Assembly: GCA_041228335.1 (NCBI GenBank)
Contig: CP166130.1
Location: 892,638-956,637, forward strand
DNA length: 64,000 nt
Reading direction: 5' to 3'
Source: Alphaproteobacteria bacterium LSUCC0684
GTDB lineage: Bacteria > Pseudomonadota > Alphaproteobacteria > Puniceispirillales > UBA1172
Numbering within the stretch: the first letter of the stretch is position 1; the number at the start of each line of letters is the position of its first letter. Of the stretch, positions 1 to 26,809 are shown piece after piece. A program made the translations under genes and the position numbers. Below the pieces are notes generated by a model. It searched no databases and was not told the DNA's origin. It worked only from the letters and a program-made list of their open reading frames with translations.

Positions 1-1041
1 ATGCAGCATGAAGCCCGTAAGGCACCAGTTGGGCCGGTTGTGGCCTTCATTGCGTGGAATTTTCCAGCCACTAACATGATGCGCAAAGTTGCAGGGGCGC
101 TTGCTGCTGGCTGTTCAATCACCATCAAGCCTAGTGAAGAAACGCCGGCAACGGCAATCGCAATCGGCAAGGCGTTAACCGATGCGGGGTTGCCAGCGGG
201 AGTTTTGAACATCGTATTTGGCGTACCGCCAGAGGTCTCAGAGCACCTTCTTGCGTCACGAATTCCCCGTAAACTCAGCTTTACCGGCAGTGTTCCGGTG
301 GGCATCCATTTGCAACAGCTTGCCGCAAAGAACATGATCCGTTGCACGATGGAGCTTGGCGGACATTCGCCGGTGATGGTGTTTGAGGATTGCGATATAG
401 AAACTGCGGCACAACTTTGTGCGGCAGGAAAATTCCGTAATGCCGGACAGGTCTGCATTTCACCGACAAGGTTTTTTGTTCAGGACAGCATTCACGACAA
501 GTTTCTTGCCGAATTCAAGAAGCATGTTGAGGCGGTGAAGGTGGGTGATGGCCTTGATGAGACAATGAATATGGGGCCGCTTGTTGCCGAGCGGCGGATC
601 GACATCATGGACGGGTTCGTCGCTGACGCCATTGACAAAGGGGCCGAGTTGCTGACTGGCGGGTCACGCATTCAGAGTCCGGGCTCCTTCTTCATGCCAA
701 CCCTTTTGCAGAATGTGCCTGACACGGCGAGGATTATGACTGAAGAGCCGTTTGGTCCGATTGCTCCCACTGCAAGTTTTTCATCCCTTGATGAGGTCAT
801 TGACAGAGCGAACAGCCTGCCCTTTGGCCTTGCGGCCTATGCCTTTACCGGCAGCCCAAAAACAGCTGGCGTGCTGAAAACTGAAATTGAAACCGGAATG
901 CTGGCGATCAATTCACTGCATGTCCATTCGGTAGAAACGCCATTTGGCGGGCTGAAATTCAGCGGGTATGGCTACGAAGGGGGTATTGAGGGGCTTGAAG
1001 TGTTCCTTGCTACCAAATATTCAAGCGAGATTTATAGCTAG
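1..1041 (+). CDS. Aldehyde dehydrogenase, C-terminal part (5' end outside window)
   Basis: NAD(P)-dependent oxidation of an aldehyde to the acid. The visible 346 residues hold the nucleotide-binding and catalytic parts: the general-base Glu in MELGGHSP (E118 here) and the nucleophilic Cys in GQVCISP (C152). Family members are usually about 480 residues, so roughly 130 N-terminal residues lie left of the window and the ATG at base 1 is probably an internal Met. It ends 26 bases before the 3' end of the convergent choline-sulfatase-like gene. It resembles the aldehyde dehydrogenase at 41517-42959, which has the same MELGGHSP and QVC[IV]SP motifs. The substrate cannot be read from the sequence; betaine-aldehyde or semialdehyde types are both possible. 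Confidence 0.88.
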   Translation: MQHEARKAPVGPVVAFIAWNFPATNMMRKVAGALAAGCSITIKPSEETPATAIAIGKALTDAGLPAGVLNIVFGVPPEVSEHLLASRIPRKLSFTGSVPVGIHLQQLAAKNMIRCTMELGGHSPVMVFEDCDIETAAQLCAAGKFRNAGQVCISPTRFFVQDSIHDKFLAEFKKHVEAVKVGDGLDETMNMGPLVAERRIDIMDGFVADAIDKGAELLTGGSRIQSPGSFFMPTLLQNVPDTARIMTEEPFGPIAPTASFSSLDEVIDRANSLPFGLAAYAFTGSPKTAGVLKTEIETGMLAINSLHVHSVETPFGGLKFSGYGYEGGIEGLEVFLATKYSSEIYS

Positions 1042-1067: not shown

Positions 1068-2630
1068 TTATCCCTGATTGCGGGGGGTTTGTGGCGGCGT
1101 GGTTGGAACAAAGGGAAATCGTTTACGCGCCTTTGTTGCGGTGGTGTTCGGATCAATCGCTCCACGAACATAGGCTCTGGTTGCGTCAAATGGCGGGGTG
1201 TAATCCCATGAAGGGAATACACCCTGTTTCATTGCCTCCTGCACGAATAACCGCATCTTTTGTGATGCCATCACACGCTCAGCAAGAGCCGTTTCGTCCC
1301 AGCGCGATGACACTTTAGCGCGCATCTCTCTGATGATGTGTGAAAATACCGTATCCTGCGCCAGATTGTGCTGCTCGTGCGGATCATCGGCCAAATCAAA
1401 AAGCATTTCCGGGTCGTCGCCACAGCGAACATATTTCATTTGCCGATGGCGACACATCAATGCCGGTGCATGCACACCCTCACCACAATATTCGAAAAAT
1501 ATCAGATCATCATCGCTGTCGGCGGCGGGCAGATCAAACAGGCTTTTGCCATCCACTGGTGCTACGAATTCATATTTGTTCTTGTTTGTTGCAATGTCGG
1601 TGAAAGTCGGCAGTAAATCGGCAAGCGTTGTCAGGGCGGTCTCACAATGTCCCTTCTTGATCTCTGGACCCATGGAAATCATCGGGACGCGGACAGACCC
1701 TTCATAGGGATTGAATTTATACCACATGCCGCGCTCACCAATCATGTCGCCATGATCGGAGATCACGAAGATATAGGTGTTGTCCATGAGATTGGTTCTT
1801 TCAAGTGTCTCAACGAGGCCACCAACCAGTGAGTCAAAATAGCTTGTCATGGCAAAATAGGCATGCCGTGCTGTTCGCAATTGGTCTTCAGTGATGTCGA
1901 ATTCATCCTGACGTATGGTCATGAAATAGCGTTGTGACCAGGGATCGCGTTCGGGGTAGGGGATATAGTCTACAGTTGGCATGGGGATCGCGTCGTGGTC
2001 ATAGAGATCCCAGAATTCTTGCGTTGTCACGAAGGGGTTGTGGGGATGAGTGAATGATGCGTGGACCAGAAACGGGCGTTGGTCGGCGCTCCTGGCAATG
2101 TCAAACAACTCTTGTCGTGCAGTGTTGAAAACATGGTCATCGTAATCAATTTGCAGGCTTCGTTGGCAGATACCTGCCTCAACAACGCTGTGAAGGCTCA
2201 TCCTCGAGGGTGAGTATTCCTCGTCAATCTTTGACCAGTCGGCAGTCCAGCCATAATCCGAGGGGTATATGTCTGTGGTTAGACGGCGCTCAAATCCATG
2301 CAGTTGATCCGGCCCAACAAAATGCATCTTGCCAACAAGTGTTGTCTGGTAGCCGAGCATACGCAGATAATGGGCATAGGTTGGTTCAGATGATAGAAAT
2401 TCCCCGGCATTATCATAAACACCGATATTTGATGGCAGGCGCCCCGTCATCATGGATGCGCGCGATGGGCCGCAGACAGGACTGTTGCAATATGCATTAA
2501 CAAATACGGTTCCGTTTGTGGCAATCTTGTCGATATTTGGTGTCTTGGCGAACGGTGTGCCGTATGTGTTCAGACATAATGCGGTAAGTTGGTCGGCTTG
2601 AATTACCAGAATGTTGGGCTGTTTGCTCAT
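1068..2630 (-). CDS. betC: Choline-sulfatase-like sulfatase
   Basis: Type I sulfatase (formylglycine enzyme, alkaline-phosphatase superfamily), 520 residues. The maturation motif is C53-G-P-S-R57. BetC landmarks are present: the N-terminal metal site QADQ, the stretch GKMHFVGPDQLHGFE, LTTDIYPSDYGW, and the C-terminal FPSWDYTP tail that in choline sulfatases helps form the oligomer. Choline-O-sulfate hydrolysis to choline and sulfate is the family role; other sulfate esters cannot be excluded. There is no signal peptide, so it is probably cytoplasmic, matching uptake of the intact ester. It lies 21 bases behind the sulfatase at 2652-4151, probably co-transcribed with it. A second BetC-like paralogue is at 10012-11637. 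No choline oxidation genes are adjacent. Confidence 0.88.
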   Translation of the reverse strand: MSKQPNILVIQADQLTALCLNTYGTPFAKTPNIDKIATNGTVFVNAYCNSPVCGPSRASMMTGRLPSNIGVYDNAGEFLSSEPTYAHYLRMLGYQTTLVGKMHFVGPDQLHGFERRLTTDIYPSDYGWTADWSKIDEEYSPSRMSLHSVVEAGICQRSLQIDYDDHVFNTARQELFDIARSADQRPFLVHASFTHPHNPFVTTQEFWDLYDHDAIPMPTVDYIPYPERDPWSQRYFMTIRQDEFDITEDQLRTARHAYFAMTSYFDSLVGGLVETLERTNLMDNTYIFVISDHGDMIGERGMWYKFNPYEGSVRVPMISMGPEIKKGHCETALTTLADLLPTFTDIATNKNKYEFVAPVDGKSLFDLPAADSDDDLIFFEYCGEGVHAPALMCRHRQMKYVRCGDDPEMLFDLADDPHEQHNLAQDTVFSHIIREMRAKVSSRWDETALAERVMASQKMRLFVQEAMKQGVFPSWDYTPPFDATRAYVRGAIDPNTTATKARKRFPFVPTTPPQTPRNQG

Positions 2631-2651
2631 TTGATTGGGTTTCGTCCGGTT

Positions 2652-4151
2652 TTAGATCCTCATCGGATCCTGAGGTTTCTTGGATGGAGGTCGGTTGCCA
2701 CGAAAATTGCCGAGATTTGACCATGAAAGGATTTCGATTGTGGCGTCTTTTTTCTGCTCAAGCATCTTTGGATCATGCCATAAGTTATGAACTTCATCAG
2801 GATCGTTGGCAAGGTCATAGAGTTCGCCGTCTTTAGACCCCGGATAGACAACATATTTCCAGCGTATATCTCTGCGCATGATCAAATATTCGGCACCGGA
2901 TTGGATGTGATCGCGGCCGAGCTCGGCGTAGACATAATCACGAAGCTTTGCATCGGGATTGGCATGATCCCATACGCCGTCAGCGAGCATATTGTTTAGC
3001 GCCAGAGCTTCCCAGTTTTTTGGTGGGGTGATGCCCGCAAAATTCAAAATGGTGGGCGCCAGGTCCATGAGTTGGACCAAATCATCGCATTGCAGATTTT
3101 GCATAATCTTGCCCGGTGCCCGGAATATGAGTGGAACGCGTGTCACGCAGTCATACATGGTCCATTTTTGGATATGGCCATGCTCGCCAAGAGCATCGGC
3201 GTGATCCGAGCAAAAAATAACAATGGTATTTTCCAGATAGCCACACTTGTCGAGGCAGGACATTATCTGCCCCACTTTATGATCAATCATTGAGACATTT
3301 GCCGAGTAATACCGGTGCAATCTTTGGATGTCGTCGTCAGTTATGTTTTTTCGCCAGGCAACACTGTCGATATTGAAATCAACCATACTCTGGCGGAGTT
3401 GACGGTGCATTTTCGGCTGTTTGGATAATTCATGTGATGATGCAGAACGGTGAGGAAAGGCTGTGTCCTCGTATAGTTTTAGAAAATCATCTGTCGGATC
3501 ATATGGAGGATGGGGGCCCGGAAATCCAATCTGCAGGAAAAACGGGCTTTCTGCCTTGCGATCCTCAAGCCACCAAAGGGCGGTATCCCCGACAAAATTG
3601 TCAGGATGCATCTCGTCATCGATTTCCCAGGTAAAGCAACCGAGATTTTTCATGAATGCGTCCCGGTCGTCCCTGACCCGCGTATATCGGGATGGTTTTT
3701 CAAGCCCTTTTGCTTTCAGTGCCTTGTCCCATTCATCGTAAAGCGCTCTCTCATGATCCTCCAGAAATAGGGGGCGGTCCTTGTTTTCGACAAAGAAGCG
3801 TTGATGAAACCCTCCCTTGGCGTCATATGGATTGATGTGCATTTTGCCGATGTTGACGCAATGATACCCGGCCTCTGCCAGCCATTTCACCCAATTCGGC
3901 TGCCAGGTTTCGAAATTTGTATAGACATTGGTGGTGTGTGGATAGGCGCCAAGAAAGACGCTTGCACGTGAAGAAACGCATACAGGCGATGTGACAAAGC
4001 AGTTTGTAAAAGAAAGCCCTTCTTTCACCAGACGGTCAAGATTCGGGGTGTTCATCCAGGGGCAACCGAGCTGACTGATCGTGTCTGCACGTTGCTGATC
4101 GGTCATTATTAAAACGATGTTAGGCTTGGTTTCTTGCGGGTTCGCTGGCAT
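2652..4151 (-). CDS. Type I sulfatase with atypical CVSSR maturation motif
   Basis: Sulfatase of 499 residues with the metal-site start IVLIMTDQQRAD, a GKMHINP segment and a downstream CSDHADALGEHG metal site. The expected formylglycine motif C-x-P/A-x-R reads C58-V-S-S-R62, with Ser instead of Pro at the third position. This is unusual for substrates of the formylglycine-generating enzyme. No signal peptide is seen, so it is probably cytoplasmic. It is the first gene of the leftward pair and shares the intergenic region 4152-4271 with the ROK regulator, suggesting joint control. It could be a sulfatase on a sulfated carbohydrate or a related phosphonate/phosphodiester hydrolase; the substrate is unknown. 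Confidence 0.85.
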   Translation of the reverse strand: MPANPQETKPNIVLIMTDQQRADTISQLGCPWMNTPNLDRLVKEGLSFTNCFVTSPVCVSSRASVFLGAYPHTTNVYTNFETWQPNWVKWLAEAGYHCVNIGKMHINPYDAKGGFHQRFFVENKDRPLFLEDHERALYDEWDKALKAKGLEKPSRYTRVRDDRDAFMKNLGCFTWEIDDEMHPDNFVGDTALWWLEDRKAESPFFLQIGFPGPHPPYDPTDDFLKLYEDTAFPHRSASSHELSKQPKMHRQLRQSMVDFNIDSVAWRKNITDDDIQRLHRYYSANVSMIDHKVGQIMSCLDKCGYLENTIVIFCSDHADALGEHGHIQKWTMYDCVTRVPLIFRAPGKIMQNLQCDDLVQLMDLAPTILNFAGITPPKNWEALALNNMLADGVWDHANPDAKLRDYVYAELGRDHIQSGAEYLIMRRDIRWKYVVYPGSKDGELYDLANDPDEVHNLWHDPKMLEQKKDATIEILSWSNLGNFRGNRPPSKKPQDPMRI

Positions 4152-4271
4152 GTGATTAACCGAGGATTATTAACAAATTGTAATATTCAGTTGACAATAA
4201 TTAATTAAGTTAAAAAAATAAATACGAAATATGAAAAAATCAGCAACGTTAAACATTAAATATAGAAGTTC
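4152..4271. promoter_or_regulatory. Divergent control region between sulfatase pair and ROK operon
   Basis: This AT-rich 120-base gap separates two divergent transcription units, so it must hold promoters for both. A TTGACA hexamer lies at 4191-4196 on the + strand, but no good -10 box at 16-18 bases was found. An imperfect dyad TATTAACAAATTGTAATA is at 4168-4185. Binding by the adjacent ROK regulator is inferred from position only. Confidence 0.4.
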
Positions 4272-5513
4272 ATGCAGTTCCAATTCAAAGAGACTCAAAA
4301 TATCCGCCGACAAAATAGGGCGCAGGTCATGGCGCTCATTTTTGAGAATCCAAAAATTGACCGGACTGAACTGGCCGCGAGAATCGGAGTCAGCAACGCT
4401 GCCATAACAAACATCACAGGCGAACTGCTGGCGGCTGATCTGATTGAAGAGGTCAAAACGGACAAGAGTACGGTAAACAGAGGCCGTAAACCGGTGGGCC
4501 TGAAAATAAATGGCCAGGGTGGCTTTGTGCTTGGCGTCAATGTCCTGGCGACGAATGTCAGTGTTGTTTTGGCAGATATTTGTGGTCGTGTAATTGACCG
4601 TGTGGACCTCAATCCGCGTCGAATTGAAGATCCAAACAAAACGCTTGATGAGTTGAAAGTCGCAAAGAACGAGCTTCTCGAGAGAAACAATGTGCCGGCC
4701 AATCGCCTGTTCGGGGTGGGGTTTGCAATCGCCGGCTTTCTCGATCAGCGCACCGGCGAGTTGAAGAGGGCACCGTATATCGGTTGGCCTCCGTTCGATC
4801 TGACAGCGCGTCTTAAACAATTATTTCAGTGTGATTTGGTGGTCGGAAATGTCACGCGTTCTGTTGCCCTTGCAGAGAATCGCTATGGCGTTCTGTCCAG
4901 ATATAAGGATCTGATTTTGATCAGGTCCGGTCTTGGCTTGGGCGGTGCGTTCATTTCTGAAAGACGGGTACTTGAAGGCAGTCAGAATTTTGCAGGTGAT
5001 CTTGGCCATGTTTGTGCTGAACCCGATGGAGGCCTGTGCTCATGTGGGAAAAGAGGTTGCTTGAACACAATAGCGTCTGGCTGGGCAGTGATGCACATGC
5101 TTGGTGACGCTATTGTTTCCTATGCAACGATCAATCAGTTCCAGCAGCAGAATGCGCGTTTGTCCGAACTGGTATCTGATGAGGCAAAGGCATCTCCGGA
5201 TGTCGTAGATGCGTTGACTGTGGCGGGTGAGAAACTGGCCGCGTATGTGTCGCCGATCTGTCAGGCGTATGACCCCGAGGCAATCTGTCTTACCGGACCA
5301 TTGGGGCGTCACCCTGCATATGCCAATGCTTTCAAAAAGAGGATGGCTGAAAGCAGCCTGCCATGCCGTGTTATCACAGCCAGTGAAGAGGAAATCATGT
5401 CACCTGCCATGGCAACTGTCTATTTGGCGCTTTCAGATATCGTTTATTCATCCAGATTTGACTTTGATCAAATCTCCAGGCGCCATTCAGGCATTAAGGC
5501 GGCTATCAAATGA
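4272..5513 (+). CDS. ROK-family transcriptional regulator
   Basis: NagC/XylR-type repressor of 413 residues. A winged helix-turn-helix occupies about residues 15-65 (RTELAARIGVSNAAITN). It is followed by the ROK domain with the GLGLGGAF phosphate-loop region and the zinc motif CSCGKRGC (about residues 256-263). Family members sense sugars or sugar derivatives and repress linked catabolic genes. It is the first gene of the rightward operon, and its stop overlaps the TRAP permease start by four bases (ATGA). It faces the leftward sulfatase pair, so it probably controls all sulfatases and the transporter. The ligand is unknown; a desulfated sugar or polyol is plausible. Confidence 0.88.
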   Translation: MQFQFKETQNIRRQNRAQVMALIFENPKIDRTELAARIGVSNAAITNITGELLAADLIEEVKTDKSTVNRGRKPVGLKINGQGGFVLGVNVLATNVSVVLADICGRVIDRVDLNPRRIEDPNKTLDELKVAKNELLERNNVPANRLFGVGFAIAGFLDQRTGELKRAPYIGWPPFDLTARLKQLFQCDLVVGNVTRSVALAENRYGVLSRYKDLILIRSGLGLGGAFISERRVLEGSQNFAGDLGHVCAEPDGGLCSCGKRGCLNTIASGWAVMHMLGDAIVSYATINQFQQQNARLSELVSDEAKASPDVVDALTVAGEKLAAYVSPICQAYDPEAICLTGPLGRHPAYANAFKKRMAESSLPCRVITASEEEIMSPAMATVYLALSDIVYSSRFDFDQISRRHSGIKAAIK

Positions 5514-7402
5514 CAACATCAAACGCCCTGCGCGTCAGTGAAATGGCAAATTTCGTCACAAAATGTCTATGTGTTGGACTGGTTTTGTTTTCACTCTACA
5601 CGGCGCTTTTTGGTGTACTTCCTGATATTATCCAGCGTGGAGTCCATCTCTCCACGGTTCTGTTGCTGGTTTATGCAAAGTTTTTTGGGGACACCGGCAC
5701 TGAGGGTGGTGGTATCCTGACATACCTTCACCGAATCAAATTTTTTGTCTTTGGTATTTTGGCCGCCTTTGGTGCGGGGTATCAGTTTATCTTCTATGAT
5801 GAAGTGGTAGCCCGGTATGGTGAGATCACCACTTTTGAAATCCCCGTCGCGATTATCGCCATTATCCTGTTGCTTGATGCGACGCGCCGTACAATCGGCT
5901 GGTCAATGGTCGGTTTGGCTGTATTTTTCCTCTTTTACGCGTCATTTGGGCGGCACTTCCCGGATTTGATCTCGCATCGCGGATATGATCTTCAGCGTAT
6001 TCTTGAACAGGTGTATTTGGGTGCCGACGGTATTTACGGGACCCCACTGGGCGTAAGCGCGACTTTTGTCATCATCATTGTTGTTTTGGGCGCTTTGTTG
6101 GAAAAGACGGGGGCCAGCGGTGTTCTTATGGACATTGCAGTGGCGGCAACAAGGACTTCCCGCGGCGGCCCGGCGAAATCTGCTGTTATCGGTAGTAGCC
6201 TCATGGGGATGATTTCGGGAACTGCCGTTGCAAATGTTCTAACCACCGGAACGATCAGCATCCCCCTCATGCGCCGCGGTGGCTACAAACCCGCTGTTGC
6301 TGGCGCCGTCGAGGCTGTGGCATCGACAGGAGGTCAGTTGATGCCGCCGATCATGGGCGCAGCAGCCTTTCTCATGGCCGACATCATGGAAGTGCCATAT
6401 CTGGAGATCACCAAAGCGGCAATCATTCCAGCAATTATTTTCTATGTCGCGGTTTTTGCCTCGGTTCACCTTGAGGCGGTGCGAACAGGGTTGAAGCCAT
6501 TGCTGGATGTCGATGTGCCCAGTGTATCCGGTTCGTTACGACGAAATGGTCATGTTCTGATCTCCATACCGGTTTTTATCGGCGCGCTCATAATGGGCTA
6601 TTCGGTGATGTATTCATCGTTAGCTGGCATTGTTTGCCTTATGTTCCTCTCACTGCTGCGAAAATCGAGTCGTCTTGGCTTCAGGCAGTTGGTGGAGGCG
6701 GCGTCATCTGCCTGTGAGGCCATTGTACCAGTCGCGCTGGCTACCGCGACGGCGGGCATTGTTATCGGTGTTGTGACCCTGACCGGATTGGGACTCAAAT
6801 TCAGTTCTTTTATCGTAACCATTTCAGGAAACAATCTGGTTGTTGCCTTGATCCTGACAATGTCTGCCTCGTTGGTCCTTGGTATGGGATTGCCGACTGC
6901 AGCATCCTATATTCTGGTCGCCACGCTGACAGCACCGGCACTCGTCAATATGGGCGTGGACCTTATGGCAGCACATATGTTCGTGTTTTATTCAGCAATG
7001 TTGTCTTCAATCACGCCGCCGGTGGCGTTGGCGGCATTTGCAGCTGCCGCGATATGCAGAGAGCCACCAATGCGGGTGGCTGTAATATCGGTCAAGTTTG
7101 GATTTGTGGCATTTATAATCCCTTATTTTTTCGTGCTTGAGCCTCGCTTGCTGGCTGAGGGGCAGCTGATTGAAGTGCTGGAGATGTTCGTCTTGGCAAC
7201 AATAGCTGTCCTGGCGCTGGTCTGTGCAATTCAGGGGTATGCCTTCACCAAATTATCAATCCTGGAGCGGTGTATCCTGCCGTTGGCTGCATTTGCGTTG
7301 CTGATGCCGGGTACAATTTTAACTGCAATCGGAATAGCTGTTCTTTTGGCCATGGGGGCAGTTTGGAAGATCGGCCTATCGGCTAGGGGGGCTGGCACCT
7401 AG
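5510..7402 (+). CDS. TRAP transporter fused permease (4TM + 12TM)
   Basis: Membrane part of a TAXI-type TRAP transporter, 630 residues, in which the small DctQ-like part (about residues 1-170) is fused to the large DctM-like part. DctM hallmarks are present: the glycine-rich GTAVANVLTTG stretch, ASTGGQLMPPIMGAAAF, and LGMGLPTAASYILVA. Such fused permeases work with TAXI binding proteins and use an ion gradient to import organic acids or similar solutes. The start overlaps the ROK stop, and the binding protein follows 45 bases downstream. The position between a regulator and sulfatases suggests uptake of a sulfated organic compound; this is inference. Confidence 0.92.
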   Translation: MTTSNALRVSEMANFVTKCLCVGLVLFSLYTALFGVLPDIIQRGVHLSTVLLLVYAKFFGDTGTEGGGILTYLHRIKFFVFGILAAFGAGYQFIFYDEVVARYGEITTFEIPVAIIAIILLLDATRRTIGWSMVGLAVFFLFYASFGRHFPDLISHRGYDLQRILEQVYLGADGIYGTPLGVSATFVIIIVVLGALLEKTGASGVLMDIAVAATRTSRGGPAKSAVIGSSLMGMISGTAVANVLTTGTISIPLMRRGGYKPAVAGAVEAVASTGGQLMPPIMGAAAFLMADIMEVPYLEITKAAIIPAIIFYVAVFASVHLEAVRTGLKPLLDVDVPSVSGSLRRNGHVLISIPVFIGALIMGYSVMYSSLAGIVCLMFLSLLRKSSRLGFRQLVEAASSACEAIVPVALATATAGIVIGVVTLTGLGLKFSSFIVTISGNNLVVALILTMSASLVLGMGLPTAASYILVATLTAPALVNMGVDLMAAHMFVFYSAMLSSITPPVALAAFAAAAICREPPMRVAVISVKFGFVAFIIPYFFVLEPRLLAEGQLIEVLEMFVLATIAVLALVCAIQGYAFTKLSILERCILPLAAFALLMPGTILTAIGIAVLLAMGAVWKIGLSARGAGT

Positions 7403-7447
7403 CGCGATCGAAGACAACACCAGATCAGCTCTAATTCGGAGGAGAAA

Positions 7448-8434
7448 ATGAAAAAATCAAAATTTGTTACAGGTGCTTTTGCAGCTCTGGGCTTGATGTT
7501 CGGATCTAGTGCCATTGCTGAAACCTATTTATCTATCGGCTCAAATCCGGTCGGCAATACGGCGTATCAATGGGCGGCAGGAATTTCTGAGTTGGTCAAC
7601 AAGAATGTTCCAGGAGTAAAGGCCGCAGCAGAGGGCACCAAGGGTTATGTAGCCAATGTGCAGCTGATGCTCGATGGCAAGGTCGAAGCCGGGTTTTCAA
7701 ACACGCGGCTTGCCTATGAAGCCCATCATTCTCAGGGCTCCTACAAAGGGCAAAAGCAAGGCCAGATTGTGGGTTGGATGTCGGTCAAGCCGATTTATAT
7801 GCAGGTTATTGTTAAAGAGGACTCTGACATCAGATCGCTCTCGGATCTCAGGGGCAAGCGGGTTGGCATGGGGCAGCCGGGTGGAACCTCAATGCTTGAT
7901 GCTGATTTGTTGATGGAGACAGTTGGATTGACGCCCGGACAGGATTTCAAGGAATTCAGGGTGAAACTACCGACAATGGTAGACATGCTTGGGGATAATC
8001 AACTTGATGCACTGATCTGGAGCGGAACGCCTCCCATGCCGCCTGTTATCAAGCTTAAATCACAGCATGATGTTCGGTTTCTCGACATTCCCCGCGATAT
8101 CTCGGAGAAAATAATGAAGGTGTCACCCGCCTATACGAAAGGGGATCTGAAGGCCAATGTCTATGCGGACCAGCCAAATGAAGTGAAGTCATACATGCTC
8201 GGGAATGTTCTGCTGATCAAGGCAGACATGCCGGAGGAGATCGTGTATCAGGCGACGAAGGCGGTGATGGAGAACCTTGATTTCATGGCAACGGTTCACC
8301 CGGCTTGGAAGACCGTTCAGAAAGATGCGATCGTAAACGGGTTTACAATACCAGTTCATCCGGGTGCCTTGCGCTATTACAGGGAAGCAGGCGTTGCAGG
8401 CATCGAAGAGTTTGCCAAACGCGTCGGAAACTGA
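7448..8434 (+). CDS. TAXI-family TRAP solute-binding protein
   Basis: Periplasmic binding protein of 328 residues with a signal peptide (MKKSKFVTGAF..., likely cleavage after SSAIA, about residue 24). The mature part starts YLSIGSNPVGNTAYQWA, typical of TAXI receptors, and contains the segment LRGKRVGMGQPGG. A strong ribosome-binding site (GGAGGAG) precedes the ATG. It delivers its ligand to the fused permease just upstream. The hairpin after the stop (8442-8467) probably sets a higher mRNA level for this gene than for the sulfatases behind it. The ligand is not known; the sulfatase context suggests a sulfate ester. Confidence 0.92.
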   Translation: MKKSKFVTGAFAALGLMFGSSAIAETYLSIGSNPVGNTAYQWAAGISELVNKNVPGVKAAAEGTKGYVANVQLMLDGKVEAGFSNTRLAYEAHHSQGSYKGQKQGQIVGWMSVKPIYMQVIVKEDSDIRSLSDLRGKRVGMGQPGGTSMLDADLLMETVGLTPGQDFKEFRVKLPTMVDMLGDNQLDALIWSGTPPMPPVIKLKSQHDVRFLDIPRDISEKIMKVSPAYTKGDLKANVYADQPNEVKSYMLGNVLLIKADMPEEIVYQATKAVMENLDFMATVHPAWKTVQKDAIVNGFTIPVHPGALRYYREAGVAGIEEFAKRVGN

Positions 8435-8441
8435 TGTTTTG

Positions 8442-8467
8442 GCCACACGTCCTATTGGGCGTGTGGC
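8442..8467 (+). terminator. Intercistronic hairpin after TAXI binding protein
   Basis: Perfect 8-bp stem GCCACACG/CGTGTGGC with a 10-base loop, followed by a pyrimidine-rich tract ending in TATTTTTAT. It lies between the binding-protein stop and the next sulfatase. Such hairpins often act as partial terminators or 3'-end stabilisers behind binding-protein genes. Confidence 0.6.
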
Positions 8468-8497
8468 TTCTCCCTATTTTTATAGAATTCTGAGCCA

Positions 8498-10015
8498 ATG
8501 AAAATCGTCTTTGTACTGCTGGACTCGCTGAATCGTAATGCAATGACGCCTTATGGTTCGACATCTGTTCATACACCAAATTTCACACGGTTTCAGCAGC
8601 GTGCGGTCACTTTTGACAATCATTATGTCGGTAGCCTGCCCTGTATGCCGGCAAGGCGCGATCTTCACACCGGCCGAAGCCATTTCCTGCATCGCAGTTG
8701 GGGGCCGCTTGAGCCATTTGACGATTCTTTTCCCGAATTGATGAAGCAGAATGGCACCTACACGCATTTGATCACCGACCATCATCATTATTTTGCTGAC
8801 GGCGGCGCTACCTATCATCAGCGTTTTTCGTCATGGGAGCTGGTGAGGGGGCAGGCAATAGACCGCTGGAAAGCCGAGGTTGCGCCTGATCTTGAGGCGT
8901 TGAAATCAGCCTATCACCCTGTTCAGCACCATCGCACCAATTATATGATCAATCGGCAATTCATGCCCGAGGAAGTTGATTATTGTGCGCCGCAATTATT
9001 TGCACTCGCAGATGAATTTCTACACCGCAATCATCATGCCAAGAACTGGCTTTTACAGCTTGAATGCTTTGACCCTCATGAGCCGTTTCACGCGCCATCA
9101 CGCTTCCGTGAGCTCTACAAAACGCAATATGAAGGGCCTATTCTGGATTGGCCAATTTATGACAGAGTTACAGAAACCCCCGAAGAAATTGCTGAATTGC
9201 GCGCCAATTATTCAGCATTGGTGACGATGACAGATGAATATTTCGGTCGCTTGCTTGATTTTTTTGACGAGAAAAACCTGTGGGCCGATACCGCACTTGT
9301 TCTGACTACCGATCACGGGTTCCTTCTTGGTGAGCATGATTGGTGGGCAAAGAACCGTATGCCCGTCTATGACGAGATCGCACATATTCCACTGATGATC
9401 TATCACCCTGATTTTGCCAATATGGGCGGTAGCCGAAATAGCGCCTTGACACAGACCACGGATATTATGCCCACTATGCTGGATATGGCGGGTATACCCA
9501 TTCCCGACGATGTTACCGGACATTCACTGATGCCGGTTTTGCAGGGTCAGAAAAGCAAACGGGAGAGCGTGATCTTCGGCTATTTTGGTGCGGCGGTGAA
9601 CGTTTGTGACGGACGCTACAGCTATTTCCATTATCCGACCGTCTCGGGCGCCGATCATCTTCATGAATATACATTGATGCCCACACGGATGACGACCCGT
9701 TTTTCTATCCGTGAGTTGCTTGGCGCCACCTTGCACCCATCCTTTGCTTTCACCAAGGGTGTGCCGGTGTTGCGCCTTGACCCTAAAATAAATGATGAGG
9801 GAGAGCCAGTCGAAGTCCAAGGCATGGACTTTGTCGATACACAATCGCAATTGTTTGATCTGGTAAATGATCCGGGGCAACTTAAGCCACTCGAGGCCCC
9901 CGACATAGTGGAGCGCTTGCGTCAACAGATCATCAAAAATATGATTAACCTTGATGCACCGGATGAATCCTATCATCGATTTGGTTTTGCTGTTCCCGGG
10001 AAGCATGCGAAATGA
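8498..10015 (+). CDS. Type I sulfatase, CMPAR motif
   Basis: Arylsulfatase-A-type protein of 505 residues. The formylglycine motif is C49-M-P-A-R53 within LPCMPARRDLHTGR. Metal-site elements include the N-terminal VLLDSLNR, and TTDHGFLLGEHDWWAKN near residue 270. There is no signal peptide. It differs clearly from the BetC-like pair and belongs to the sulfatase group with a CMPARRxLHTGR signature. It is the third structural gene of the ROK operon, and its stop overlaps the next sulfatase start by four bases, so the two are probably translationally coupled. The substrate is unknown. Confidence 0.88.
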   Translation: MKIVFVLLDSLNRNAMTPYGSTSVHTPNFTRFQQRAVTFDNHYVGSLPCMPARRDLHTGRSHFLHRSWGPLEPFDDSFPELMKQNGTYTHLITDHHHYFADGGATYHQRFSSWELVRGQAIDRWKAEVAPDLEALKSAYHPVQHHRTNYMINRQFMPEEVDYCAPQLFALADEFLHRNHHAKNWLLQLECFDPHEPFHAPSRFRELYKTQYEGPILDWPIYDRVTETPEEIAELRANYSALVTMTDEYFGRLLDFFDEKNLWADTALVLTTDHGFLLGEHDWWAKNRMPVYDEIAHIPLMIYHPDFANMGGSRNSALTQTTDIMPTMLDMAGIPIPDDVTGHSLMPVLQGQKSKRESVIFGYFGAAVNVCDGRYSYFHYPTVSGADHLHEYTLMPTRMTTRFSIRELLGATLHPSFAFTKGVPVLRLDPKINDEGEPVEVQGMDFVDTQSQLFDLVNDPGQLKPLEAPDIVERLRQQIIKNMINLDAPDESYHRFGFAVPGKHAK

Positions 10016-11637
10016 CCAAAAAACCCAACATCTTGATGATAATGGCGGATCAGTTGGCCGCGCAGGCTCTGTCTGTTTACGGGAATGGGATATGCCAGAC
10101 CCCCAATCTTGAGCGTCTTGCCTCACAAGGTGTGACCTTTACGAACAATTATTCAAACAATCCGCTATGTGTTCCGAGCCGGGCATCCATGTTAACGGGC
10201 AAACTCAGCCCTGAAATCAAGGTCTATGACAATGCCAATGAAATTGCCTCATCATTGCCGACGATGGCGCATTACATGCGCGCACTGGGCTATCAGACGT
10301 TTCTATCCGGCAAGATGCATTTTATTGGCCCTGACCAACTTCATGGATTTGAGGAGCGCCTGACCACCGATGTTTATCCGGCGGATTTTCAGTGGATTGC
10401 CGATTGGTCAGCGGGGCCGGCATTCGTCCCGTCAGGAACGGCGTTGAATGGGGTTGTTGAGGCGGGCCCCTGTATCCGCACGATGCAAGAAGATTATGAT
10501 GATGATGTCGAGTTTCAGGCGCGCCGCAAGATCTTTGATTTGGCGCGGCAGGAAGATGGAAAACCGTTCTTTGGTGTGATTTCGTTCACGAGCCCGCACA
10601 CGCCCTTCAATGTCACTCAGAAATTTTGGGACCTCTATGATCATGAACAAATAGGCCTTCCCGATGTGCCAGCGATTCCCTTTGCCGAACTTGATTACTT
10701 TTCCAAAGCGTTGTTTTTTGCGCATGGGCGGCATCGACATACCGTCACCGAGAATCATCTGCGAAATGCACGCCACGCCTATTTTGCAATGATCTCCTAT
10801 CTGGATGAAAAGATTGGTAATATTTTAGAACAACTGGATGACACCGGACTACTTGATAACACGGTGGTGATGTTTACATCGGATCATGGTGAGATGCTCG
10901 GCGAGCGTGGCATGTGGTTCAAGCAATGTTTCTGGGAGTGGTCTGCCCGGGTGCCGCTGGTGATTTCGGTGCCGGGCGGCCGCCGGAATGAACAGGTTGC
11001 TGTAAACACGTCTCTGGTAGATTTGCTTCCAACACTGATAGGGTTGGCTGGTGGCGCTGCAGGGCTGCCTGAAGAGATGGTTCATGGCCTTGCGGGAACA
11101 GATCTTGGCGCTTTTTTAACTGGAGATGATGAAGATTGGCCTGATTGTGTCATTGCCGATTATCTGGCCATTGGCCCTTGTGTGCCGTGCCGGATGGTCA
11201 GGAAGGGGCGCTATAAGTATATATTCACGCATGGCAAGCCTGATCTACTTTTTGATCTTGTCGATGACCCGCAGGAATTGAACAATCTTGCGCTCGACGC
11301 TAAGCATGAACCGGCACTTGATGAGTTGAAACAGGTGGCAATGAAAGATTATGATCCGGTCGGGTTGATGGAAGAGATAATAATCAGCCAGCGATATCGC
11401 CGTTTTGTGGCGACCGTTGGCGGGCGTCAACCATCATGGGATTATATCGCGTATCAGGGTGATGCTGAACGCTATGTTCGCCGGGACGGTGTTGATGGAA
11501 CGAAATCGCGACTTCGACTGCCGCGAGTGGCTACAATACCGCCTGATATGCCTGATCTTGCCGCAGACATCATTGACCGGATGATGGCGGGTGAATTGGA
11601 TTTTGACCAGATGAAAGATGCATGGAATGCAGGGTAA
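10012..11637 (+). CDS. betC: Choline-sulfatase-like sulfatase (second copy)
   Basis: A 541-residue sulfatase with maturation motif C53-V-P-S-R57 and BetC landmarks: GKMHFIGPDQLHGFEER, LTTDVYPADF, and the C-terminal PSWDYIAYQ tail. It is paralogous to 1068-2630, with the same order of motifs, but shows clear divergence in the middle, where QEDYDDDV and SFTSPHTPFNV stand out. Expected reaction: hydrolysis of choline-O-sulfate or a similar alkyl sulfate in the cytoplasm. The start overlaps the upstream sulfatase stop (ATGA). Two BetC-type enzymes in one locus suggest related but different substrates. Confidence 0.88.
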   Translation: MTKKPNILMIMADQLAAQALSVYGNGICQTPNLERLASQGVTFTNNYSNNPLCVPSRASMLTGKLSPEIKVYDNANEIASSLPTMAHYMRALGYQTFLSGKMHFIGPDQLHGFEERLTTDVYPADFQWIADWSAGPAFVPSGTALNGVVEAGPCIRTMQEDYDDDVEFQARRKIFDLARQEDGKPFFGVISFTSPHTPFNVTQKFWDLYDHEQIGLPDVPAIPFAELDYFSKALFFAHGRHRHTVTENHLRNARHAYFAMISYLDEKIGNILEQLDDTGLLDNTVVMFTSDHGEMLGERGMWFKQCFWEWSARVPLVISVPGGRRNEQVAVNTSLVDLLPTLIGLAGGAAGLPEEMVHGLAGTDLGAFLTGDDEDWPDCVIADYLAIGPCVPCRMVRKGRYKYIFTHGKPDLLFDLVDDPQELNNLALDAKHEPALDELKQVAMKDYDPVGLMEEIIISQRYRRFVATVGGRQPSWDYIAYQGDAERYVRRDGVDGTKSRLRLPRVATIPPDMPDLAADIIDRMMAGELDFDQMKDAWNAG

Positions 11638-11684
11638 CGAATTTGGTCTCTTTATTGATTTCATTGTGATACCAATATCCCACC

Positions 11685-12614
11685 GTGAGTGACATTTTTT
11701 CAACAATCTCTGCTGTTTTGTTACTGGTATTCGCCGGGCATATACTTTGGCGCCAAAAATTTGTTCCTGTCTCTTTTTGGGATGGACTCTCAAAGATCTG
11801 CTATTGGATTTTGTTTCCATGTCTGCTCTTTGATTTGATGTCCACGCTTCAGTTGGATGCACCGTTTTTGCTGCCATTTGGTCTTACGATACTTGTGGGC
11901 TCGACTTCAGTGGTTTTCTTCGGACTTTTCTCGGGATGGCTGATTGGAGCAAGTGGGTCAACCACCTCATCGCTTGTTCAGGGTGGGTTGAGATGCAACG
12001 GTTTCTTGATGTTGGCATTTGTACAGGGTGCCTTTGGCATGGCTGCCCTTGAGATTGGTGCCCTGAGTGTTGCGATACTCGTTCCAATCGCCAATATCGT
12101 TTCCGTTCTGGTGATTTTCTTGTTGGGCGACAGTAAGAAGGACGCCGATCTTGGCCAGGCTATTTTTACTGAATGTGCCCGCAACCCCCTTATCGGGGCG
12201 ATCATCCTCGGTGGGCTGGTCAATGTCTTTGCTGTTCCGATCCCGGGTTTTGTCAATGTATCAACCGAACTGCTCGGCCGATCTTCATTGCCCATGCTGT
12301 TGTTATGCGTGGGGGCATCAATCAGAATTGCCGGATTAGGGGCTCACAAGATGGCATTGTTTTTGGCAGTGTTGTCAAAGCTTATTGTCCTGCCATCCAT
12401 CATGATGATCGCCGGCCTTTTCCTTGGTTTGGAAAAACAGGTTCTGCTCGTGCTGGTTGTTTTAGCGGCGGCCCCTACAGCCGCTTCATCCTACACGCTG
12501 GCACAGCAGCTTGGAGGAGATGTCCCGCTCATGGCTGAGATCATTACCGTACAGACGTTGGTGTCGGCTATCGCCATTCCAGGGTGGGTCATGGCAATGA
12601 CCATGTTGCTGTAA
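11685..12614 (+). CDS. AEC-family (auxin efflux carrier-type) permease
   Basis: Integral membrane protein of 309 residues with about ten hydrophobic segments, starting with FSTISAVLLLVFAGHILW and ending with AAPTAASSYTLAQQLGG, a motif typical of the Mem_trans/AEC family. It uses a GTG start at 11685; no in-frame ATG gives a better N-terminus. Members carry malonate, malate or other small anions, and some are exporters. It sits 47 bases behind the last sulfatase and probably ends the operon, so it could move a desulfated product or counter-ion. This role is inference. The 249 bases after it (12615-12863) show no gene or clear terminator. Confidence 0.85.
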   Translation: MSDIFSTISAVLLLVFAGHILWRQKFVPVSFWDGLSKICYWILFPCLLFDLMSTLQLDAPFLLPFGLTILVGSTSVVFFGLFSGWLIGASGSTTSSLVQGGLRCNGFLMLAFVQGAFGMAALEIGALSVAILVPIANIVSVLVIFLLGDSKKDADLGQAIFTECARNPLIGAIILGGLVNVFAVPIPGFVNVSTELLGRSSLPMLLLCVGASIRIAGLGAHKMALFLAVLSKLIVLPSIMMIAGLFLGLEKQVLLVLVVLAAAPTAASSYTLAQQLGGDVPLMAEIITVQTLVSAIAIPGWVMAMTMLL

Positions 12615-17036: not shown

Positions 17037-18638
17037 TTATTGAGTGCAATGTTGCAGAATATGATGGGCGGCTTTTTCACCAATCATGAGTGAAGGTGCA
17101 TTTGTGTTGGCCGATGTAATCTTTGGCATAACTGAGGCGTCTGCGACATATAGCCCCTCAACTCCATTGACGCGCAATTCTGGATCGACCACTGCGCTGG
17201 AATCTGCCCCCATACGGCATGTCCCCACAGGATGGAAAACTGTACCTCCGTTGTTACGGATGTAATTTAGAATCTTCTCATCGTTATCAACATCGCTACC
17301 GGGGACAATTTCGGTATCCCACAAACCCCGAAAAGCAGACATGTGATAAATTTCCCGCATGATTTTGACGCCTTCAACCATAACTTTTTGATCATGTTTG
17401 TCAGACATGTAGTTTGGTTGTATTTTGGGGCTCTCGGTTGGGTCTGTTGACCGGATTTCAACAGACCCCCGAGACTTTGGATGACATTGCCATACGGTTG
17501 CGGTGAAGCCGGGATAGTCATGCAAGGGTTCGCCTGGTTTGTCGACGGAAAGAGGCATGACAAGAAGTTGCACATCAGGGCGGCCGTTTTTAGCATATTT
17601 TGTGCAGGCACCGGCACCAACCTGGCCGGCACCAACTGACAAAATTCCAGATCCGTCCTTCAGCCACTTCAGACCATGAAGGGCCATTTTTAGCGGATTA
17701 CGGCTGTCTGTGTTCAATGACATCCCGTTTCGCATTTGGACGATTGTTCGCATTTGATAGTGATCCTGAAGGTTCTGGCCCACCTCATCTGACCGATGAA
17801 TAACAGAGATATTGTGCTTGCGAAGCAATTCGGCAGGACCAATGCCAGACAACTGCAAGATCTGTGGTGATTGCAGGGCGCCCGCACTGACAACGATTTT
17901 TCTCGCTTGATAGACTTCTTGAACACCGTTGCGCCGGGCAATGATGCCGGTTGCGCGGTTACCCGAAAAAGTGATCTTTTCTACCAGTGTATCAGAAATA
18001 ACAGTCAGATTATCGCGGTGGGCAACAGGGTGCAGGAAAGCGCGCGCCGAGCTCGACCGCCATCGTCCATCAAGCGTGAGTTGGTACCTGCCGGCACCAA
18101 GCGACTGACTGCCGTTGAAATCGTCAATTTCGGGTAGACCCCATTCAATCGCTGCCTTTAGCCACGCCTCACAGGCGGGGTGCTGCAGACGAAGATCGTC
18201 AACCTTGAGTTCGCCAAAACTGCCCCTGAACTGACTCTCGCCACCCTTATACCCCTCCAGTTTTCTGAAAAAGGGTAGAACCGTCTGAAAGTCCCAACCT
18301 GTTGCGCCCAGTGCTTGCCAGTCGTCAAAGTCCTCTCTCTGACCCCGGATAAAGATTAGGCCGTTTATGCTGCTTGATCCACCGATGATGCGTCCACGAG
18401 GCCATTTTATGGCCCGACCACCGCTACCCTCGCATGGCTCTGTTTCGAAAACGCGTGAAAATGCCTGATTATATATTGTTTTGTAGTACCCAATTGGCAG
18501 GCGAGACCAAAATCTGCGGTCGGAACCGCCGGCCTCTAACAGAAGAACTTTGTGATCGGGATTTGCGGATAATCTATTGGCAATGAGGCAGCCTGCTGAA
18601 CCTGCGCCAACAATAATAAAATCGTAATTGTGTTCCAT
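17037..18638 (-). CDS. GMC-family FAD oxidoreductase (choline dehydrogenase-like)
   Basis: FAD-dependent alcohol or sugar oxidoreductase, 533 residues. The dinucleotide motif is IIVGAGSAGCLIANRL at the N-terminus. GMC signature 1 is GRIIGGSSSINGLIFIRG and signature 2 contains SAGALQSPQILQLSGIG. The catalytic His is in FHPVGTCRMG and the second catalytic residue region is NTNAPSLMIGEKAA. The frame is open to 18740, but the ATG at 18638 starts the canonical N-terminus and leaves the operator at 18695 outside the gene. It is divergent from the enolase-superfamily gene with a shared operator. The substrate may be a sugar, polyol or sugar alcohol; BetA-type choline oxidation is less supported by this neighbourhood. 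Confidence 0.88.
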   Translation of the reverse strand: MEHNYDFIIVGAGSAGCLIANRLSANPDHKVLLLEAGGSDRRFWSRLPIGYYKTIYNQAFSRVFETEPCEGSGGRAIKWPRGRIIGGSSSINGLIFIRGQREDFDDWQALGATGWDFQTVLPFFRKLEGYKGGESQFRGSFGELKVDDLRLQHPACEAWLKAAIEWGLPEIDDFNGSQSLGAGRYQLTLDGRWRSSSARAFLHPVAHRDNLTVISDTLVEKITFSGNRATGIIARRNGVQEVYQARKIVVSAGALQSPQILQLSGIGPAELLRKHNISVIHRSDEVGQNLQDHYQMRTIVQMRNGMSLNTDSRNPLKMALHGLKWLKDGSGILSVGAGQVGAGACTKYAKNGRPDVQLLVMPLSVDKPGEPLHDYPGFTATVWQCHPKSRGSVEIRSTDPTESPKIQPNYMSDKHDQKVMVEGVKIMREIYHMSAFRGLWDTEIVPGSDVDNDEKILNYIRNNGGTVFHPVGTCRMGADSSAVVDPELRVNGVEGLYVADASVMPKITSANTNAPSLMIGEKAAHHILQHCTQ

Positions 18639-18741: not shown

Positions 18742-19968
18742 ATGGAAATGAAAAAAAAGAATGTTGATGAAGAGGGTGCGCTTAGCGTTGCAGTAAGGCA
18801 ACTATCTGGCCAAACTCAGGAAATCAAGCATGTTGAGGCTATTCTTTTACGAGCAAAGATTGAAGTCCCGGTGCGAACATCATTTGGCACCATGAACGAC
18901 CGTCCAGCATTGCTTGTGCGGGTCACCGACGCAGATGGTTGTGTCGGGCATGGAGAGATATGGTGCAATTTTCCATCACATGGCGCTGAATACAAGGCTG
19001 CCCTGTTGGTCAATGAATTTGCGCACTGGCTTAAGGGACGGTGTTTCAGTTCCCCAACAGAAATATTTGATGGGTTAAACGATGCCTTTAAGGTGTTAGC
19101 TTTGCAGACTGCCGACCCCGGCACGGTGTCGCAGGTAATTGCTGGCGTGGATCAGGCCTTATGGGATCTGGTTGCGCGCCGTCAAGGGGTAAGACTTTGT
19201 GAGTTATTTGGCTCGCCAGGCAAATCTGTAAAGGCCTACGCTAGCGGAATTCATCCCAAAGAAGCAAGCGATCGTGCCGGGCTTGCCCGAGATTGTGGGT
19301 TTAGGGCGTTTAAGGTTAAAGTAGGGTTTGGTGGGGATATTGACCAAAAAGGCTTGGTTGCCGCCCGAGATGTTATTGGTGACGATAACCGGTTAATGAT
19401 CGATGCCAATCAGGCTTGGCTGTCGCCAGAGCAGGCCGCCGATAACATTAATACGTTGCGTCGGTTCAATTTGGCATGGGTTGAGGAGCCGCTGCGTGCC
19501 AGCGCCAGGCAAAAAGAGTGGCGGTCCATGGCTGAAATGATTGATGTGCCACTTGCAGGTGGAGAAAATTTGCCGACATTGGATAAAGTTGACGCCTATT
19601 GGCGAAAAAAACTGTTTTCCTTCATTCAGCCAGATATCGGAAAAATTGGCGGTTTCACCGGATTGCTTCGCATCTTTGGCAATCCTGCCACTGCCCATCC
19701 CCTAACGGATGGTGTGTATTGTCCGCACTGGTTGGGTGGAATGATCGGTCTTGCTGCATCGGCACATATGTTGACTATTGTCGGCGATGCTGGTTTTCTT
19801 GAGATAGATGTGAATGAAAACCCGATCAGGGAAAGTTTGGCGGGTTGGGATCTGAATCCAGCGGAGGACGGGCGCATACACCTGCCAACGGGCGATGGTA
19901 TCGGTATTGTTCCGGATTTGTCCAGGATGATGGAAAAAGGTGTTGATGTTACGATAATGTCGGGATGA
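18742..19968 (+). CDS. Mandelate racemase/muconate lactonizing enzyme family protein
   Basis: Enolase-superfamily enzyme of 408 residues. The N-terminal capping domain starts near residue 30 (IEVPVRTSFG). Barrel residues are the K-x-K motif in AFKVKVGFG (about 189), metal ligands Asp in LMIDANQAW (about 219), Glu in WVEEPL (about 247) and Glu in AGGENLP (about 274), then Asp in IQPDIGKIGG. A GVYCPHWLGGMIGLAAS segment closes the active site. Such enzymes dehydrate or epimerise sugar acids by taking a proton next to a carboxylate. It is the first gene of the rightward LacI-controlled unit and precedes the TRAP genes by 28 bases, so its substrate is probably the imported sugar acid. ATG 18748 is an alternative start. 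Confidence 0.88.
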   Translation: MEMKKKNVDEEGALSVAVRQLSGQTQEIKHVEAILLRAKIEVPVRTSFGTMNDRPALLVRVTDADGCVGHGEIWCNFPSHGAEYKAALLVNEFAHWLKGRCFSSPTEIFDGLNDAFKVLALQTADPGTVSQVIAGVDQALWDLVARRQGVRLCELFGSPGKSVKAYASGIHPKEASDRAGLARDCGFRAFKVKVGFGGDIDQKGLVAARDVIGDDNRLMIDANQAWLSPEQAADNINTLRRFNLAWVEEPLRASARQKEWRSMAEMIDVPLAGGENLPTLDKVDAYWRKKLFSFIQPDIGKIGGFTGLLRIFGNPATAHPLTDGVYCPHWLGGMIGLAASAHMLTIVGDAGFLEIDVNENPIRESLAGWDLNPAEDGRIHLPTGDGIGIVPDLSRMMEKGVDVTIMSG

Positions 19969-19996
19969 CTATCTTGTGGTGGGAGGTAACACAGGC

Positions 19997-20551
19997 ATGA
20001 CTTGGGCAATCAGATTTTTGTCAGCAATCAATGGGGTTCAACTGGGTGTGTTTCGGTGGGGGGCGATGTTACTTGTGCTGGCGATCGCAGCTATTGTGTC
20101 GGCTGGTGTGTTCTTTCGATATGCTCTTAATGATAGTCTGTCATGGTCAGAAGAACTGGCCAAATATGCAATGTTGTGGCTGGTGTTCCTTGGTGCACCG
20201 ATTGCGCTACGCCTTGGCGCTCACCCGAATATAGAGGTCGTCATTTCGAGATTCCCGTCACGGATGACTCGGCTCATACTGACTATCATGCATTTGGCGG
20301 TATGTCTGTTTTGTGCCTTCCTTGCCATTAAAAGTCACGATTTCGCTTGGAATGGACGAACGCAGGTTGCCATTTCGGTAGGCGATATCTCGATGTATTG
20401 GTTTTTCGTCTCAATACCTTTGGGGATGGCTAGCATGGCACTCGTGTCCCTGCAGCAATTTTTAGAAGACGCATCCTCTCTTTTTAAAAATAGCAGGTTA
20501 GAACAGGATGCTTTCGTGGCTAAACACAAGCCGGTTCTTGAAGAGTTTTAA
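19997..20551 (+). CDS. dctQ: TRAP transporter small permease (DctQ type)
   Basis: Four-helix membrane subunit of 184 residues with the typical RYALNDSLSWSEELAKYAM segment and a second half DISMYWFFVSIPLGMASMAL. A GGGAGGT ribosome-binding site at 19981-19987 selects the ATG at 19997 over the GTG at 19976. It pairs with the large subunit 25 bases downstream to form the ion-driven importer fed by the binding protein at 21949. Substrate class: probably a sugar acid, judged from the enolase-superfamily and UxaA-type neighbours. Confidence 0.92.
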   Translation: MTWAIRFLSAINGVQLGVFRWGAMLLVLAIAAIVSAGVFFRYALNDSLSWSEELAKYAMLWLVFLGAPIALRLGAHPNIEVVISRFPSRMTRLILTIMHLAVCLFCAFLAIKSHDFAWNGRTQVAISVGDISMYWFFVSIPLGMASMALVSLQQFLEDASSLFKNSRLEQDAFVAKHKPVLEEF

Positions 20552-20576
20552 GTAGGGTAATTATGAGGGCTCTGAA

Positions 20577-21863: not shown

Positions 21864-21899
21864 ACCTTAAATTACGTTTATTTAATTTATTTACAATTT

Positions 21900-21915
21900 A
21901 TGATACCGGTGTCAT
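21900..21915. promoter_or_regulatory. LacI-type operator before dctP
   Basis: ATGATACCGGTGTCAT is identical to the site at 18695. It lies 33 bases upstream of the dctP start and overlaps a TATGAT sequence (21899-21904) that could be a -10 box. This suggests an extra repressor-controlled promoter for the binding protein. Confidence 0.82.
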
Positions 21916-21948
21916 TATTTTTTAAACAATCAATTGGGAGGAATCAAA

Positions 21949-23058: not shown

Positions 23059-23104
23059 ATATGAGCTAAAACTTAGCTCAACAACCTGTATCTGGTGGGT
23101 GCAT

Positions 23105-23833: not shown

Positions 23834-24084
23834 ACGTCGAGGTTGGTAGACGGTTTGTAGTGCTGAACCCATCCGATAACGTGGCAACCTTGTTGGATGA
23901 GAAAACCGAAGTTAATCGGCTCAGCGACGGTATGCGCATCGCAGATCATGTGCCCTTCGGTCATAAAGTTAGCCTGCACCCCATTGCCGTTGGTGATGCA
24001 ATTGTCAAATATGGCGTAATGATTGGGATGGCTACAAAGCCTATCAAAAAGGGTGAGCATGTGCATGTCCATAACTGTCAGTGA
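23824..24084 (+). CDS. SAF-domain small subunit of UxaA-type dehydratase/lyase
   Basis: Protein of 86 residues that matches the N-terminal SAF domain of altronate dehydratase, here encoded separately. It starts inside the SDR gene (10-base overlap), and the large-subunit gene starts inside it. The motif IADHVPFGHKVSLHPIAVGD and the ending IKKGEHVHVHN are typical. Two-gene versions are known for (R)-sulfolactate sulfo-lyase SuyAB and for sugar-acid dehydratases such as that of the Campylobacter fucose pathway. Which of these applies cannot be decided here. Confidence 0.85.
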   Translation: MQLDVEVGRRFVVLNPSDNVATLLDEKTEVNRLSDGMRIADHVPFGHKVSLHPIAVGDAIVKYGVMIGMATKPIKKGEHVHVHNCQ

Positions 24085-26016: not shown

Positions 26017-26032
26017 ATGATAGGACGATGTG

Positions 26033-26746: not shown

Positions 26747-26809
26747 AGCGAAGTTTTTCGGGATTTCGGTCATCGATAGAAGCAGGTGCAGATATTAGAG
26801 GATGGCGTT

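Follow-up and report, generated by a model that had tools for sequence, protein, structure and literature searches.

The described systems closest to the locus presented here concern a TAXI-type importer, a choline sulfatase, and the maturation of sulfatases. VcGluP/VcGluQM of Vibrio cholerae, a TRAP system of the same class, pairs a TAXI binding protein with a fused membrane subunit, and the glutamate-binding positions of VcGluP are Y45, S75, Q93, E125, Y200, and M201 (PMC11574862). In the solved choline sulfatase BetC, the quaternary ammonium group is clamped by W129 and by H145 of a W143-Y144-H145-N146 hairpin (PMC9063841), while E386 is required for activity on choline-O-sulfate but dispensable for aryl sulfate (PMC5870055). 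With respect to maturation, the existence of a third system in E. coli was suggested in 2007 (Benjdia et al., as cited in PMC6189696), and the choline sulfatase of S. meliloti turns over slowly when unmodified (PMC6189696), so that a missing maturase need not mean inactivity.

The window analyzed in this study comprises 64,000 nucleotides (G000:C1:892638-956637) of the complete 2.70 Mb chromosome of Alphaproteobacteria bacterium LSUCC0684 (genome label G000). Our analysis confirmed the genes and coordinates given in an earlier sequence-only reading, namely four distinct sulfatase-family genes (S1–S4) placed around a TAXI-TRAP importer and a ROK regulator, together with an AEC permease, in two divergent units (Table 1): S2 followed by S1 in the leftward unit; ROK, TRAP permease, TAXI, S3, S4, and AEC in the rightward unit, where genes are separated by short gaps or overlap (by 4 bp for both ROK/permease and S3/S4). 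The locus is nevertheless wider than was described there, as the conserved set also takes in positions 1-1041 and 17037-29242. All four S1–S4 proteins carry the PF00884 Sulfatase domain (124–184 bits, cut-off 25) and an active site of the C-x-(P/S/A)-x-R type. The claimed lack of signal peptides was borne out as well: the domain begins at residue 3–10 and the open frames allow no upstream extension to accommodate one, hence the four enzymes are cytoplasmic. Among the accompanying elements, the ROK protein is a probable local repressor, the AEC permease is possibly an exporter or a second carrier, and the divergent intergenic region would likely act as a control region, although sites found in a promoter/terminator scan were no more frequent than in shuffles.

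Table 1. Features of the sulfatase locus and of the catabolic genes further along the window (positions within the window).
Feature	Position	Strand	Characteristics
Aldehyde dehydrogenase (ALDH), 3' part	1..1041	+	Full gene 478 aa, start upstream of window
S1, choline-sulfatase-family (TIGR03417)	1068..2630	-	CGPSR active site, no signal peptide, clamp replaced by PSRMS
S2, arylsulfatase-like	2652..4151	-	CVSSR active site; accessory, in some relatives only
S2-ROK divergent intergenic region, A+T-rich	4152..4271		TTGACA-type promoter-like site at 4191
ROK-family regulator, NagC/Mlc-like	4272..5513	+	N-terminal winged helix
Fused TRAP permease, DctQM fusion type (TRAP_fused)	5510..7402	+	622 bits, cut-off 321 (TIGR02123)
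TAXI-family TRAP solute-binding protein	7448..8434	+	227 bits, cut-off 84 (TIGR02122); apparent signal peptide
S3, cytoplasmic FGly-type hydrolase	8498..10015	+	Divergent CMPAR active site; between sulfatases and phosphonate monoester hydrolases
S4, choline-sulfatase-family paralogue	10012..11637	+	CVPSR active site; clamp replaced by PSGTA, E386 by Ile
AEC-family permease	11685..12614	+	Sporadic in relatives
GMC-family alcohol dehydrogenase	17037..18635	-	Genome's best match; 58% identity to cassette GMC of a relative
Enolase-superfamily (MR/MLE) sugar-acid dehydratase-like	18745..19968	+	Genome's best match; ~40% identity to cassette MR genes
DctQ, DctM, DctP (second TRAP importer)	19976..22995	+	
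Sugar-acid block	23099..29242	+	SDR, UxaA/galactarate-dehydratase-like, two SDRs, truncated TPP enzyme, PfkB kinase, LacD-type aldolase

The company of the importer is conserved. A search of 61 genomes for the TAXI protein yielded six orthologues (48–80% identity) in addition to the window's own copy, and S3/S4-type sulfatases adjoin TAXI in all seven of these loci (own copy included), vs. none, within ~1.5 kb, in the 23 fetched loci of TAXI paralogues (identity of 29% or less). This consistency rules out a chance arrangement. The core of the orthologous loci consists of TAXI, permease, S1, S3, and S4, with a frequent ROK and an occasional S2, and an unbroken single-strand row ROK-permease-TAXI-S3-MR-GMC-S4-ALDH is observed in locus L093. 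These data support the importer and the cytoplasmic sulfatases as one conserved functional unit, which makes desulfation of imported esters inside the cell, as supposed in the sequence-only reading, a natural interpretation.

A broader view was provided by S3, the most widespread member of the cassette, whose alignment was used to scan ~85,000 prokaryote species; the best 77 loci of the 476 relatives were read, and the resulting counts describe the company of S3 and not that of sulfatases in general. Among these best 77 of 476, the 18 well-flanked marine loci, mainly from SAR116 with some from other Alphaproteobacteria, contain TAXI beside S3 (15 loci), choline-sulfatase-like genes (15), GMC dehydrogenases (9), and MR/MLE dehydratases (8). 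The Burkholderiales-group loci (26) are characterized by GMC (19), MR (15), and choline-sulfatase-like genes (15). No close TAXI relative was found in these 26 loci or in the 18 Rhizobiales-group S3 loci; the one importer checked per group was a TctC-type binding protein (Burkholderiales) and a sugar-type ABC system (Rhizobiales). The enzyme set is kept where the importer differs, with GMC dehydrogenase, MR/MLE dehydratase, aldehyde dehydrogenase, and choline-sulfatase-like genes accompanying S3 across distant loci.

The importer itself has the composition of a TAXI-TRAP system, with both the TAXI protein and the fused DctQM-type permease above their family cut-offs and encoded 45 bp apart. 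A glutamate-type ligand was considered and rejected: in alignment with VcGluP, none of the six ligand residues is kept (Y45 to A, S75 to Y, Q93 to N/T, Y200 to W, and M201 to S/N, with E125 unaligned), and because of this the ligand, as far as binding-site alignment can tell, probably differs from glutamate. Neither a description of a TAXI-TRAP/sulfatase pairing nor a report of sulfate esters as a TAXI substrate class was found in the literature searched, in line with the earlier view that this arrangement is uncommon.

Catabolic genes complete the conserved set. The ALDH gene adjoins S1, shares 90% identity with its counterpart in the relative G045, and is found beside a GMC dehydrogenase gene in relatives. 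The sugar-acid block (23099-29242) directly adjoins S4 in G045, with 73–89% identity; a comparison of the two genomes gives 73–95% over most of the block vs. 39, 65, and 66% for three genes outside it. The high block identity to a member of a different family and the adjacent integrase suggest that the block was horizontally transferred as an island, the baseline for this comparison being the three genes only. This integrase, of the phage tyrosine type, is encoded at 30838-31995, just past the block; the TPP enzyme gene next to PfkB (26786-27331) encodes 181 aa vs. the full 551 aa in G045 and is apparently truncated. A specific-equivalog cut-off is reached by none of the GMC, ALDH, MR, UxaA-like, kinase, and aldolase proteins; the GMC protein is choline-dehydrogenase-like but falls below both choline-dehydrogenase cut-offs (for TIGR01810, 462 bits vs. 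732). A convergent operon at 12864-16870, possibly part of a sulfonate or pentose pathway, combines a LacI regulator and a transketolase divided over two genes with a HIBADH-family dehydrogenase whose best NCBIfam match is sulfolactaldehyde reductase (226 bits, under the cut-off of 348).

On balance, we favor the interpretation of the locus as a substrate-utilization unit for the import of a small sulfated compound, its cytoplasmic desulfation, and oxidative catabolism. Judging by family functions, the substrate class is most likely a sulfated polyol, monosaccharide, or sugar acid and not choline-O-sulfate, because ROK, GMC, ALDH, MR, the UxaA-like dehydratase, the kinase, and the aldolase all point in this direction, the neighboring catabolic genes favoring sugar sulfates. 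In the proposed scheme, (i) a small anionic sulfate ester would be captured in the periplasm by the TAXI protein and brought in through the fused TRAP permease; (ii) sulfate would be removed in the cytoplasm by S1, S3, and S4, joined by S2 in certain strains, where the individual sulfatases probably differ in the position that they attack or in their substrate within one family of compounds; (iii) GMC and aldehyde dehydrogenases would convert the product oxidatively into a compound resembling a sugar acid, which would then undergo dehydration by the enolase-superfamily enzyme and cleavage by the neighboring set of dehydratase, kinase, and aldolase. The unit would be controlled by the ROK protein; the transport substrate, the order of reactions, and this regulation are what we infer from the gene families involved. 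Arguing against a single pathway, GMC and MR are located on transcripts separate from the sulfatases in G000, and MR has only the modest identity to cassette MR genes given in Table 1. Utilization of sulfate esters is further called into question by S3, whose actual substrates may be phosphonates or phosphodiesters, and by sulfatase activity not being certain where no maturase is recognizable.

The first of these concerns leads to the alternative that survives best, although we regard it as unlikely: phosphonate or phosphodiester use, in which S3, and possibly the whole set, would be phosphonate monoester hydrolases (PMHs) and not sulfatases. Indeed, S3 combines similar scores for PehA (143 bits) and arylsulfatase (131 bits) with the C-x-P-A-R active site seen in PMHs, and PMH and sulfatase structures tie among its structural matches; its predicted structure (mean pLDDT of 73.7, poor around the active site) confirms the fold only. 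However, the PehA score is far below the cut-off of 900 (NF045661), S1 and S4 keep the full sulfatase residue set, phosphonate genes are absent from the locus, and inspected alignments show DHHHY in S3 where PMHs show GYTDT and sulfatases GKxH. The GYTDT motif is carried instead by a CGPAR hydrolase encoded elsewhere in G000 (L015 5709-7343), likely the genome's PMH, which adjoins an aminotransferase and a phosphodiesterase of the phosphonate-catabolism type. The description of S3 as a sulfatase in the sequence-only reading is insecure, S3 being as near to PMHs as to sulfatases.

Utilization of the imported compound has also to be weighed against sulfur scavenging, in which esters would be taken up mainly for their sulfate and the catabolic genes would be coincidental neighbors. 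Sulfatases are often used by soil bacteria for sulfur supply, but seawater is rich in sulfate, the regulator belongs to the sugar-sensing ROK type, and S3 is accompanied by dehydrogenase and dehydratase genes in distant groups with different importers, so we consider this explanation decidedly improbable.

Sulfatase maturation presents a separate problem. The absence of a maturase from the window, pointed out in the sequence-only reading, is an understatement, as none is recognizable in the whole genome. All eight sulfatase-family proteins of G000 have a cysteine-type active site, and no canonical FGE was recognizable anywhere in the complete genome by PF03781 and true-FGE queries. The genome-wide FGE search envisaged earlier returned one FGE-fold protein only: the genome's single PF03781 protein, also the sole match (34 bits) to a true FGE, has GGSWWYGDRQM in place of GGSFLCHxSYC, is apparently exported, and upon inspection was rejected as an FGE since both catalytic cysteines, kept in the FGEs of relatives, are gone. 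This protein (L011 5571-6353; genome C1 110579-111217) has an apparent signal peptide, is conserved in many relatives, and is encoded in the vicinity of a copper-type P-type ATPase and a CcoG-like ferredoxin protein. No anSME was found in the genome or in 14 genomes searched.

A true FGE (>200 bits) is present in 9 of 101 genomes of the order; it is encoded between S1 and S3 in L095 and near the cassette in L087. Such an FGE is absent from 26 of the 33 genomes that have a choline-sulfatase-family protein above cut-off, several of these 26 being drafts but G000, G022, G016, and G004 single contigs. Across 292 alphaproteobacterial genomes, 51 carry TIGR03417 proteins, and a PF03781 match at E<=1e-45 (a threshold at which divergent FGEs may escape and other fold members may be included) is found in 28 of these 51 vs. 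77 of the 241 others (p=0.003). With 23 of the 51 genomes having no such match, the notion that an FGE-less genome is a rarity was rejected; the maturase gap is real in G000 and common in the class. We tentatively suggest, at somewhat less than even confidence, that G000 and nearly half of the sampled choline-sulfatase-bearing Alphaproteobacteria may use a maturation route other than FGE and anSME, or an unmodified cysteine, and that this is combined with TAXI-TRAP import of sulfate esters. That the sulfatases are mostly inactive relics left after the genome lost its maturase appears very unlikely: the lack of both FGE and anSME in a complete genome and the truncation of the nearby TPP enzyme gene would fit such decay, but all of the S1–S4 genes are intact and their active sites conserved, S1, S3, and S4 are 76–84% identical to their counterparts in FGE-bearing relatives, a genome of 2.7 Mb still maintains eight intact family members, and the pattern recurs in many related genomes.

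S1 and S4 exceed the TIGR03417 cut-off of 433 (606 and 564 bits, respectively), the upper group in the sampled class scoring 682–899. We have aligned 81 proteins, 22 from the BetC group and 59 from the S1, S4, and S5 groups. Catalytic residues are conserved throughout, the S1 and S4 groups retaining C54, N75, H104, Y123, W129, H201, and K309, whereas the YHN hairpin is present in all 22 BetC-group proteins and in none of the 59 others. Thus S1 and S4 keep W129 but have lost the rest of the clamp, and E386 is retained in S1 only (Table 1). The genome's separate BetC, at G000:C1:1269275 (721 bits), has KWYHN intact; its neighbors, an OpuAC betaine-type ABC binding protein, a Rieske oxygenase, BKACE, and a 3HCDH dehydrogenase, are as in choline and carnitine catabolism. 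Another clamp-less choline-sulfatase-family paralogue of G000 (L012 6643-8205, PSGMS) has as neighbors a DctP-type TRAP importer and a CoA-transferase, which gives this genome a second pairing of TRAP and sulfatase genes. Choline-O-sulfate, which had been put forward as a candidate substrate, was rejected on these grounds, and its utilization with S1 and S4 as choline sulfatases and with GMC and ALDH making glycine betaine is hardly credible, the family scores of S1 and S4 and the resemblance of GMC and ALDH to BetA and BetB being outweighed by the missing hairpin, the loss of E386 in S4, the intact BetC elsewhere beside betaine- and carnitine-type genes, and the GMC score under both choline-dehydrogenase cut-offs.

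Overall, the locus is real and conserved, and it is probably a mobile utilization locus in which a TAXI importer replaces the usual carriers. Sulfated organic matter forms large pools in marine waters, and little is known about the use of small esters by the abundant SAR116 group, for which this locus provides a candidate route of uptake and degradation. The main value of the analysis lies in: (i) a corrected reading of the "choline sulfatases", with the warning that many proteins of this name have no choline-binding site, and (ii) a system in which the maturation question can be studied cleanly. FGE-less genomes with sulfatases lend themselves to testing the suspected third route of maturation, and a cassette shared by FGE-bearing and FGE-less relatives makes this question testable by comparison.

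A side-by-side comparison with known systems reveals the following likenesses and differences. With the FGE (SUMF1 type) and anSME systems, the genome shares just the apparently exported FGE-fold protein devoid of catalytic cysteines. Relative to VcGluP/VcGluQM, the locus differs at all six ligand determinants, and its genomic partners are sulfatases. The PMHs (PehA, RlPMH, SpPMH) resemble S3 in scores and active site and differ from it in having GYTDT instead of DHHHY, with S3 far under the PehA cut-off. Finally, S1 and S4 share the fold, the type of C-terminal tail, and the catalytic residues of BetC from the betICBA system of Sinorhizobium meliloti (PDB 6FNY/7PTH), and the GMC and ALDH of the locus resemble BetA and BetB; in contrast to betICBA, the clamp is gone from both sulfatases and E386 from S4, GMC remains under the choline-dehydrogenase cut-offs, ROK replaces BetI, and the locus adds S2, S3, the TAXI-TRAP importer, and the nearby sugar-acid enzymes.
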